Positions 446 to 44,342 of a stretch of DNA of 64,000 nucleotides are shown in pieces (the stretch's first letter is position 1; every line of letters begins with the position of its first letter). Source of the stretch: Corynebacterium testudinoris (GTDB lineage Bacteria; Actinomycetota; Actinomycetes; Mycobacteriales; Mycobacteriaceae); assembly GCF_001021045.1 (NCBI RefSeq), contig NZ_CP011545.1, positions 1,736,001 to 1,800,000 of the forward strand, read 5' to 3'. A program made the translations under genes and the position numbers. The notes beneath the pieces were generated by a model. It was not told where the DNA came from. It did no database searches and saw nothing but the letters and a program-made list of their open reading frames with translations.

Positions 446-4982
<4,537 letters not shown>

Positions 4983-42058: not shown

Positions 42059-42411
42059 TGCTTTAATGTAGCTCGCCTTGTGGCTGCGGTCACCACTTAG
42101 GCGAATATCGTCATGGTTCACTGGGACGAGTCCGCAATCAACCCCTGCATCGGAGGACATCCGCTCACCCATCCGCCAGAGACAGGCACCTCCCTGGGCC
42201 GCACGGTGCGAACCATCAGACGTGCCACTAGCTGCGTCCAATTCCAGGGACCGAGTACCGCAGGGATGGCAAGTGCTCGACGATGGGCTCCAAGACCCGC
42301 CTTTCAACCGCTAGGGTGACGATGTGATCTCGGAAGGCCGTCAAGTTCACATATAAGTCAACCACTTCCTCCTATGTCGACCTCTCCACCGCGTTGTGCT
42401 ATCATCAACCC
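42059..42411. other. long intergenic region between the symporter and the Abi_2 gene
   Basis: About 350 bases with no recognisable gene. Open frames on both strands here lack domain similarity. I looked for a glycine riboswitch in front of the symporter and did not find its conserved core. Near 42400 the sequence TGCTATCAT looks like an extended -10 for the hairpin RNA/Abi_2 transcript. Confidence 0.4.
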
Positions 42412-42450
42412 ACCATGATCAGCCCGTTGCCAAAAGCGCGGGCTGATTTT
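42412..42450 (+). ncRNA. candidate short hairpin RNA upstream of the Abi_2 gene
   Basis: ATCAGCCCG (42418-42426) pairs perfectly with CGGGCTGAT (42439-42447), loop of 12 bases, followed by TTTCTATT. It looks like an intrinsic terminator placed only 18 bases before the Abi_2 start codon, and an extended -10 (TGCTATCAT, ending at 42405) sits just upstream, so a ~40-nt RNA starting near 42412 is likely. AbiF-type genes are reported to be paired with a small structured antitoxin-like RNA; assignment to that class is inference. Confidence 0.55.
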
Positions 42451-42467
42451 CTATTCCTGCGGGGACC

Positions 42468-43454
42468 ATGGCTAAGTATGAGAAGCCCTGGCTGTCAGTC
42501 GACGAGCAGATTGATCGGCTTTCAAGTCAGGGGGTGACAATCCAGGATCGCGATCGAGCAGCTTCCATCCTGCATGCCGTGGGGTACTACCGACTAACCG
42601 GATACCTATACCCTTACCGCGAGTCCGAGCACTCAACCGACGAACAAGGCCACGCTCGAGTCCAAGTGCTTGCTGCCTATCGTCAGGGAACGACTCTCCA
42701 ACATGCGGAAGACATCATCAATTTCGATCGACGGCTGCGAATGCTCGTGATGGATGGCATCGAGCGTTTCGAGGTCGCAGTCCGTATGCAAGTCGGCTAC
42801 GCACTTGGGAAAAGATCACCATTTGCCTACGAAGACCCAGCCGTCTTCACCACATCGTTTGTTAACCAGCGCACTGACGTTCGAGACCCTGGCCCGAGCA
42901 AGCATGTGGAATGGCTTCAGAAGGTGAACGAGCGAAGATCTCGTTCGGATGAGAGGTTCGTCGAGCACTTCAGGGAGAAGTACGAGGACCGAATGCCAGT
43001 GTGGGCCCTCACTGAAATCCTTGAGTTGGGGCAACTCTCTGGTTTATACCGCGGCATGAATCAACAAGATGCTGAGGAGATTGCGACGGCTTTCGGAGTT
43101 CCAACGAAGAAAATCATGTCGAGTTGGCTGGCCAGCCTAAATTATGTACGCAACGTTGCTGCACACCACTCCCGGCTGTTCAATAGGAAGCTCCAGAACG
43201 CGCCTTCCCGCCCTAAAGTTGGCCAGATCCCGCTCCTCGACCACTTGCGGGGTAGTGAGAATGCAAAAGGTGTCTTTGGCACCTACAACGCCCTTGCCGT
43301 CATCGCGTATGTACTGACGTCAATCGACCCAGAAGCTGACTGGACGCAACGGACGTCCGCACTTCTTCGTGAATTCCCAACTACGCATGCTCTATCGATC
43401 GAGTCAATGGGTGCACCCACGGACTGGGAGTCTCTAAAGCTCTGGAAACCTTAG
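42468..43454 (+). CDS. Abi_2/AbiD-AbiF family abortive-infection-type protein (HEPN)
   Basis: 328 residues. The N-terminal YEKPWLSVDEQIDRLSSQGV and GYYRLTGYLYPYRE are typical Abi_2 segments, as are FDRRLRMLVMDGIERFEVAV and PVWALTEILELGQLSGLYRG. The HEPN ribonuclease motif R-x4-H is present as R228-NVAA-H233 in YVRNVAAHHSRLFNRKL. Such proteins are predicted RNases that cause growth arrest on phage infection. The gene stands alone on the plus strand between minus-strand housekeeping genes and is lower in GC than they are, consistent with acquisition. GGGG precedes the ATG weakly; no promoter after the hairpin is evident. Confidence 0.88.
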   Translation: MAKYEKPWLSVDEQIDRLSSQGVTIQDRDRAASILHAVGYYRLTGYLYPYRESEHSTDEQGHARVQVLAAYRQGTTLQHAEDIINFDRRLRMLVMDGIERFEVAVRMQVGYALGKRSPFAYEDPAVFTTSFVNQRTDVRDPGPSKHVEWLQKVNERRSRSDERFVEHFREKYEDRMPVWALTEILELGQLSGLYRGMNQQDAEEIATAFGVPTKKIMSSWLASLNYVRNVAAHHSRLFNRKLQNAPSRPKVGQIPLLDHLRGSENAKGVFGTYNALAVIAYVLTSIDPEADWTQRTSALLREFPTTHALSIESMGAPTDWESLKLWKP

Positions 43455-43493
43455 ATGGCTAGTGCCTGGCTGCTGGAGTTCACGAACACGAAG

Positions 43494-44342
43494 TCAAAGC
43501 TCAGCAAAGCTCCGCCCCTGACAAGCCGGGCAAAAGTGGCTCGACCGGTTCATAAATTTCTCGCGCCTAATCGGCGTGCCACACCGCACGCACGGCTCCC
43601 CTTCTTGGCCGTAGGCGTTGAGTGACCGGGAGAAGTAGCCCGAAGCGCCGTTGACGTTGACGTAGAGAGAGTCGAAGGAGGTACCGCCTTGTTCGAGGGC
43701 GCGGGCCATGACGTCGGCGGCGGCGTCGAGAAGCTGGGTTACTTCTTCTTGGGTGAGGGAGGATGCTCGGCGGGTGGGGGCGATCTGGGCGGCCCAGAGG
43801 GCTTCGTCGGCGTAGATGTTGCCGATGCCGCTGACTACGGTTTGGTCGAGTAGGACGGCTTTGATCGCGGAGTTTTTCTTGCGGATGCGTCGGGCCACCT
43901 CGGCGGGGTCGAATCCAGGCTCTAAGGGGTCGTGGGCGATGTGGGTGACGGGAAGGGGCACGCCGTCGCGGGTGGAGGTGAAGAGCCAGCGGCCGAAGGT
44001 CCGTTGGTCGACGAAGGCGAGCTCGTGGTCGGCATCATCGCCAACGAGCGTGGCGCGAATGCGCAGGTGCTTGGAGGTGCAGGTGCCTGGCTTGCCGACG
44101 AGCATTTGCCCGCTCATGCCCAAGTGGACGAAGAGGGCTGAGTCGTGGCCGAGGTCGCACCATAGGTATTTGCCGCGCCGACGAACGTCGTGGATGTGAG
44201 CGCCGACGAGGAGATCGTCGAGCGGGGCATCTTGGCCGCGGTTGGCGCGGGGGTGGAGGACCTCGACTGACTCGAATCGAGAGCCCAACAGATGGGACTC
44301 TAGTCCCTGCCGAACGACCTCTACCTCGGGTAGCTCGGGCAC
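43494..44342 (-). CDS. mutM: formamidopyrimidine-DNA glycosylase (Fpg/MutM)
   Basis: 282 residues. The catalytic N-terminus [14 protein letters not shown] (Pro-1 after Met removal, Glu), the helix-two-turn-helix [17 protein letters not shown], and the C-terminal zinc finger [13 protein letters not shown]...HFCPACQ are all intact. It excises 8-oxoguanine and other oxidised purines. The start codon shares one base with the rnc stop, so the genes are coupled. Confidence 0.97.

Follow-up and report, generated by a model that had tools for sequence, protein, structure and literature searches.

We describe a lone Abi_2 gene of Corynebacterium testudinoris that follows a promoter-like element and one highly conserved hairpin. 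It is likely, in our judgement, that this locus is a minimal AbiF-type RNA-protein toxin-antitoxin (TA) module in which the single hairpin would act as both terminator and antitoxin. AbiF-like HEPN toxins restrained by a small RNA are the presumed ancestors of Cas13. The locus was analysed within a 64,000-nt stretch of contig NZ_CP011545.1 (positions 1,736,001 to 1,800,000), hereafter called the window, and was compared with its relatives in 201 genomes of the genus, in other actinomycetes, on plasmids and in phage collections.

The Abi_2 gene and its genomic setting

Between fpg and a Na/Ala-symporter gene lies a gap of 1.4 kb, in which abi_2 is the sole gene. The abi_2 reading frame is intact and starts at the ATG at 42468.

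42468..43454, + strand: abi_2 gene, 328 aa, Abi_2/AbiD-F HEPN protein (PF07751, PADLOC AbiD, PDB 8vz6_A)
43149..43166, + strand: codons of the HEPN motif R228-N-V-A-A-H233 (motif search, alignment of homologues)
42096..43493, no strand: putative insertion flanked by the symporter gene and fpg, ends approximate (31-93 nt spacing in eight same-genus relatives)

The window protein matched the PF07751 Abi_2 profile (173.2 bits vs 25.6, E 9e-51) and the PADLOC model AbiD (E 2e-61). In the PDB, one chain matched, 8vz6_A, named 'Abi family protein' (E 4.6e-31, residues 4-327), and the NCBIfam search gave no match. Residues 228-233 read RNVAAH, i.e. the R-N-x3-H layout, and R228, N229 and H233 are invariant across 38 aligned homologues. 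Judged by its sequence, the protein is a plain Abi_2 member and probably an RNA-cutting defence toxin. GC content is 0.54-0.56 in windows across abi_2 and 0.58-0.70 in the flanking DNA. An earlier note, made from the letters of this stretch, had described a lone, lower-GC Abi_2 gene with an R228-x4-H233 HEPN motif; the profile matches, the motif at residue 228, the GC windows and the isolation of the gene in its 1.4-kb gap bear out this description.

In eight same-genus relatives (L193, L195, L196, L199-L202, L208), fpg and the symporter gene lie 31-93 nt apart, measured between aligned gene ends, with no abi_2 between them. As the two genes adjoin in these relatives, the 1.4-kb segment carrying abi_2 would most simply be an insertion. 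The two genes are 0.7-0.9 kb apart in L194 and L198, the symporter gene was not seen in L192, and it was absent near fpg in the eight genomes retrieved from other families (L197, L203-L207, L209, L210).

Promoter, hairpin and predicted RNA

Three further features lie between the start of the gap and the ATG.

42397..42405, + strand: extended -10 element TG-C-TATCAT (sequence, promoter scan, TAnnnT spacing and extended TG in 28/28 B1 loci)
42412..42453, + strand: predicted small RNA of ~42 nt with 5' tail ACCAUG, hairpin and U-rich tail (promoter spacing, fold z -5.3, match to covariance model R1; ends predicted)
42417..42448, + strand: hairpin with 9 perfect pairs plus a G-U, an inner 2-bp stem and a U bulge; likely terminator and antitoxin element (sequence, folding, B1 conservation)

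The stem arms AUCAGCCCG (42418-42426) and CGGGCUGAU (42439-42447) form nine perfect pairs, extended by a wobble between G42417 and U42448 and followed by UUC. Folding of the 44-nt predicted RNA gave -20.2 kcal/mol, compared with -8.2 for shuffled sequences (z -5.3, 0/200 as good). The terminator scan, whose loop limit is 8 nt, did not list this hairpin, whose apical region is longer than that limit. The -10 site scored 9/12 in the promoter scan; since 0.7 such sites are expected by chance in the region, it carries little weight on its own. From its position, a transcript start near A42412 is expected. The perfect 9-bp hairpin with a T-rich tail that the earlier note had proposed was thus recovered, as was its extended -10 element placing the start of a ~40-nt RNA just before the hairpin. 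The distance of 18 bases that it gave between hairpin and ATG was corrected to 20 nt, counted from the end of the 9-bp arm to 42468.

Conservation of the hairpin

The window hairpin belongs to a sequence class that we call B1. A scan of genome contigs yielded 18 loci. The hairpin, on whose conservation before homologues the earlier note had staked its reading, was present in 17/17 of the upstream regions read, a count that leaves out L049 (C-terminal match) and in which L047 repeats L005. The class is spread over many actinomycete families; among its hosts are Micrococcaceae, Brevibacterium, Mycobacterium montefiorense, Prauserella, Sanguibacter, Mycetocola and Enemella. The hairpin was also present in 4/4 fetched plasmid homologues (two from Rhodococcus, one each from Cellulosimicrobium and Microbacterium), out of eight with more than 50 % identity.

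Pairwise comparison was carried out on 18 B1 loci (153 pairs), i.e. the window, 14 contigs and 3 plasmids, without the divergent L002, L004-L008 and L214 and without L044, L047 and L048. Mean identity of the 39-nt RNA core was 94.4 % (lowest 84.6 %), against 71.6 % for the gene and 51.9 % for the 70 nt upstream of the promoter, and RNA identity exceeded gene identity in all 153 pairs. The lower stem, the 5' tail and the UUUUC tail are nearly fixed among genes that drift to ~72 %, which suggests that the stem is read by the protein.

The covariance model R1, built from 18 B1 RNAs, recovered 42410-42455 at 63.8 bits, the window row belonging to the model, and the runner-up in the window scored 16.4. 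Run with strict filters on the 201 genus genomes, the search that the earlier note had called for, it gave seven matches of at least 48 bits, each directly 5' of an Abi_2 gene; each of these either served in training the model or is identical to a row that did, so the new information is only that nothing else scores as high. The next matches, in G013, G018, G175, G077 and G123, scored 31-42 bits (G123 at 31), followed by nine weaker ones. Those of G013 and G077 show a B1-type RNA retained before an abi_2 remnant of ~53 residues (L178, L181), and those of G018 and G175 had no Abi_2 match in the fetched flanks and are unlinked. Among 396 genomes of the phylum, R1 matched in nine, own genome included, the others at no more than 37 bits; an Abi_2 search around four of the eight matches in other genomes (L182, L184, L185, L187) found no match.

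Two Abi_2 proteins inside the B1 clade (L009 and L010, in G040 and G116, just upstream of 1501) lack the hairpin. Roughly at the place where the RNA would start, they have an ATG (CATCATGAATGCC), as though their transcript had turned leaderless.

Survey of RNAs upstream of Abi_2 genes

Relatives of the window protein were found at 122 places in 89/201 genus genomes. The survey covered 112 of these, nine internal or C-terminal matches and one 54-residue fragment being dropped. About ten RNA sequence classes precede the genus Abi_2 genes, and a recognised hairpin was found before 104/112 loci by class patterns with hand corrections; none was recognised at L009, L010, L014, L019, L140, L152, L169 and L171. 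The class patterns were derived from these very sequences (L011, L141, L128, L130 and L170 were corrected by eye, and L151 is doubtful as class A), so that class counts are not independent. The class-free tests are a hairpin count and a promoter test against background hairpins. A U-tailed hairpin of -15 kcal/mol or lower within 150 nt was present before 86/111 genus Abi_2 genes (L171 left out, with too little upstream DNA). By the same criterion, it was present in 57/400 random window stretches and 3/39 upstream regions of long ORFs.

In the loci matching the anchors of seven classes, a TAnnnT element ends 10-14 nt 5' of the stem in 104/106 cases (misses L146, L156), and in 28/28 B1 loci it is found at such spacing together with an extended TG. 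Among 131 background U-tailed hairpins from both window strands, three had a -10 at such spacing; the stems of this background were placed by folding instead of class anchors, and one of the three may be the hairpin of the abi_2 locus itself. With this fixed spacing, transcription would begin some six nt 5' of the stem.

The host genome carries two further Abi_2 genes. One (L002, G000:C1:1400024-1400974) encodes a protein 50 % identical to the window protein and has a B1 hairpin, and the other (L003, G000:C1:52720-53652) encodes a protein 33 % identical with a B3x hairpin, which brings the host total to two B1 RNA-toxin pairs and one B3x pair. At other actinomycete Abi_2 loci, 17/27 have a U-tailed hairpin of -14 kcal/mol or lower ending 95-124 nt before the domain match; these hairpins are of further sequence types, e.g. 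ACCCGCCAUGCCUCUC...GCAAACUUUGGCGGGU (L062-L089).

Covariation and co-inheritance with the toxin clade

Covariation was tested on structures predicted from the same alignments. In class B3 (22 rows), 97.1 % of cells are paired, and the 42 both-side changes and the covariation score of 0.379 were both above all 500 shuffles; the six pairs with a both-side change and the 20 pair types were reached by 71/500 and 69/500 shuffles, respectively. In class B2 (16 rows), 98.6 % are paired, and the nine both-side cells and the score of 0.171 were above all 500 shuffles; pairs with a both-side change (3) were reached by 36/500 and pair types (9) by 2/500. In both classes the lower stem hardly varies and the upper stem drifts with compensation. 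In B1, two cells changed on both sides and 18 to 46 of 500 shuffles were as high, depending on the measure; the signal being weak, covariation is not used here as evidence for the B1 structure.

RNA classes were then placed on a quick IQ-TREE tree of 121 toxin proteins (seven short ones dropped from 128), whose deep long-branch nodes are unsure. The class labels required 17 changes (minimum 11), compared with a shuffled mean of 79.0 (0/200 as low). B1 is one clade, apart from the hairpin-less L009 and L010 inside it; A, B3 and B2 need 3, 3 and 2 changes, respectively, and B4 (3 rows) is unclustered. The RNA class therefore largely follows the toxin clade. The tree mislabels L106 (G014) as B2 because of an extra B2-type RNA 5' of its own B3 hairpin; this additional RNA is perhaps the relic of a lost toxin gene.

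Comparison with the abiF RNA family

Like RF03085 (abiF RNA), the window hairpin lies directly upstream of an Abi_2 gene on the same strand. RF03085, however, has a 6-bp outer stem, a 3-bp inner stem and a 3' CAAAUC loop, whereas the window RNA has an outer stem of 9-10 bp and no such loop, and the 3' CAAAU internal loop is absent from the B1 alignment. RF03085 gave no match at E ≤10 in 42200-43600 and none in the host genome at E ≤1 with stricter filters. A known Rfam family for the window RNA was accordingly rejected: in the window, only a TPP riboswitch (RF00059, 442-555, 57.6 bits) passes the gathering score, and no abiF lies near the gene.

In the genus, RF03085 matched at 18 places in 17/201 genomes at E ≤1, of which two places in one genome were above the gathering score (strict filters). 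By coordinates, the matches coincide with six of the 112 genus loci (L126, L128, L130, L139, L150, L168), so that annotation misses most of these RNAs. No match was found at E ≤5 in 20 further genus loci, nor at E ≤10 in L002, L003, L011, L016 and L020. We think that the Abi_2 RNAs form one fast-changing superfamily including RF03085, homology between classes being putative. The search with the window protein had missed a divergent Abi_2 protein (65 bits) at L053, on the reverse strand beside 1501; before it lies an RF03085-like RNA that scores 33 bits, under the cut-off.

The RF03085 RNA has been called of unknown function in a report that groups AbiD/F with Cas13an HEPN domains (PMC12165695, as far as the accessible part goes). 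The results listed for the open literature included no account of actinomycete Abi_2 RNAs; part of what is described here may already be covered by the AbiF-Cas13 and original abiF-motif work. A term search of the accessible main text of a C. glutamicum sRNA catalogue (PMC4046766) returned neither 'Abi' nor 'abortive'.

Comparison with other known systems

By analogy, the window pair is best placed with the type III-like, RNA-guarded toxins of the AbiF kind, of which it would be a smaller form; C. difficile and PbAbiF provide the known examples. AbiF toxins with RNA antitoxins have been published (PMC12373285; review PMC12737573; both cited here from the accessible parts). In C. difficile, AbiFCd is reported to be toxic, with R202 and H207 required, and RCd22 to bind and neutralise it in cis and in trans; RCd22 also ends most transcription before abiFCd, lowering transcription of the gene (PMC12373285). 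The window locus shares with this pair an Abi_2 HEPN protein with the R-N-x3-H layout and, as predicted, a small RNA from a promoter directly upstream with termination before the gene. The phiC2 AbiF copy is 31 % identical to the window protein over residues 10-243. RCd22, however, is described as a 132-nt RNA that contains two RF03085 motifs and has a terminator hairpin apart from these, whereas the window RNA would be ~42 nt with one hairpin and has no RF03085 match.

The structure 8VZ6 is described as PbAbiF with its RNA AbiFr (PMC12737573). The PbAbiF protein is homologous to the window protein over residues 4-327, and 8VZ6 holds one RNA per protein. The inhibitory nucleotides of AbiFr are said to sit in a bulge (PMC12737573), whereas the B1 alignment has no such bulge; another contact must do this work, if B1 inhibits at all. 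The lactococcal AbiD1 system has in common with the window an AbiD/F protein, and a short, prematurely ended upstream transcript has been reported for it. AbiD1 is, however, activated by a phage protein acting on the 5'UTR (PMC12373285), and no such protein is known for the window locus.

Taken from sequence, the features that set the window pair apart from known AbiF systems are its one hairpin, the lack of space for a separate terminator, the lack of a CAAAU bulge and the lack of an Rfam match. The ToxN toxin has a fold unrelated to Abi_2. The order promoter, RNA, termination and toxin gene is nevertheless that of type III TA systems (ToxIN), which are described with RNA repeats and a separate terminator (PMC12373285). 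At the window, the RNA gene is directly 5' of the toxin gene and co-oriented with it, but it is a single unit that leaves no room for a second terminator. One copy instead of tandem repeats was found in 28/28 B1 loci, and the gap from stem to start codon is 7-30 nt (26 B1 loci with a start found); with one hairpin and so short a gap, the hairpin itself must be the terminator, if any.

Proposed mechanism and alternatives

From homology and conservation, we infer that the window RNA acts as an antitoxin. A single promoter would yield mostly a ~42-nt RNA, in which one hairpin follows a 5' tail of 6 nt and precedes a U-rich 3' tail. Together with its U tract, this hairpin would work in vivo as a Rho-independent terminator, toxin mRNA arising from read-through only. 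The released hairpin, in excess, would be bound by the Abi_2 HEPN protein and silence its RNase site. A disturbance of transcription or of the RNA, e.g. by a phage, would free the toxin, which would then cut RNA and stop growth. By analogy, the module is probably anti-phage. The earlier note had suggested an AbiF-type TA pair with an unusually small RNA, a suggestion to which the conserved hairpin, the fixed promoter distance and the published AbiF precedents lend support. The note had missed that the hairpin is the sole candidate terminator, that RF03085 fails to find it and that about ten such classes exist.

Several observations count against the module: the promoter consensus is weak, B1 shows little covariation and no AbiFr-type bulge, and L009 and L010 lie in the B1 clade without a hairpin. 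Moreover, a compensated stem swap is reported to be tolerated in the C. difficile RNA (PMC12373285), which leaves the fixed sequence of the B1 stem unexplained. The missing bulge would also suit an attenuator, i.e. a hairpin that only terminates transcription to keep a dangerous gene low, its RNA having no role in trans; so would the U-tailed stem 20 nt before the ATG and the lowering of gene transcription reported for the C. difficile RNA region (PMC12373285). We regard attenuation alone as unlikely. Termination alone would put no constraint on the sequence, but in B1 the lower stem hardly varies, nor do the 5' tail and the UUUUC tail, and the RNA class follows the toxin clade. Furthermore, a leader of 6 nt is too short to hold an antiterminator or a leader peptide; such a peptide from the ATG at 42415 was rejected, this codon being ACG in 5/18 B1 rows.

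Two other explanations seem very improbable. The inverted repeat, just 3' of the predicted start, might be a DNA operator bound by a repressor, possibly Abi_2 itself, but U-G wobble pairs are retained in 15 to 16 of the 16 B2 rows, the length of B3 RNAs ranges from 46 to 65 nt and their upper-stem changes are compensated, and both the U tails and the start spacing are in keeping with a transcript; the wobbles and the variable length together disfavour an operator. The single-stranded tails might also guide the HEPN protein to a target, as in a forerunner of Cas13, and a guiding ability has been suggested for the AbiD/F group with Cas13an HEPN domains (PMC12165695). The 5' tail and the UUUUC tail are indeed conserved, but this constancy is unlike the variability of guides, and we give an RNA-guided nuclease hardly any credence.

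Returning to the module, we see roughly even chances that it is general, i.e. that actinomycete Abi_2 toxins are guarded by one-hairpin antitoxin-terminators of at least ten classes, mostly inherited with the clade and mostly unseen by Rfam, B1 having to rely for inhibition on different contacts, at the 5' tail, the bulged U and the UUUUC tail. If so, these matched RNA-HEPN pairs would form a natural collection that shows how recognition of RNA became diverse in the lineage ancestral to Cas13. The clade-matched classes would make RNA-protein specificity, cross-talk and the step toward guide RNAs directly testable. Should a ~42-nt hairpin suffice to regulate and inhibit, such an RNA antitoxin would be very small, and the reading of RNA by HEPN enzymes could be studied in a simple system.

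Occurrence on plasmids and in phage collections

Among the 12 plasmid homologues read, four carry B1, those of Rhizobium, Microvirga, Scytonema and Paraburkholderia have CCCUCU-type hairpins (by eye), and no hairpin was seen in that of Methylomonas. An abiF RNA has been reported in a cyanophage (PMC9964418, accessible part). Two exact patterns gave 0 and 0 matches in IMG/VR. The phage collection held 68 records with an Abi_2 relative; the two actinobacterial-looking ones among the matches listed were fetched, and one has the B1 hairpin. On the phage-labelled MT835574 (L060), an unverified faecal scaffold, a B1 system is found at 4001-4978, with a protein 75 % identical to that of the window.
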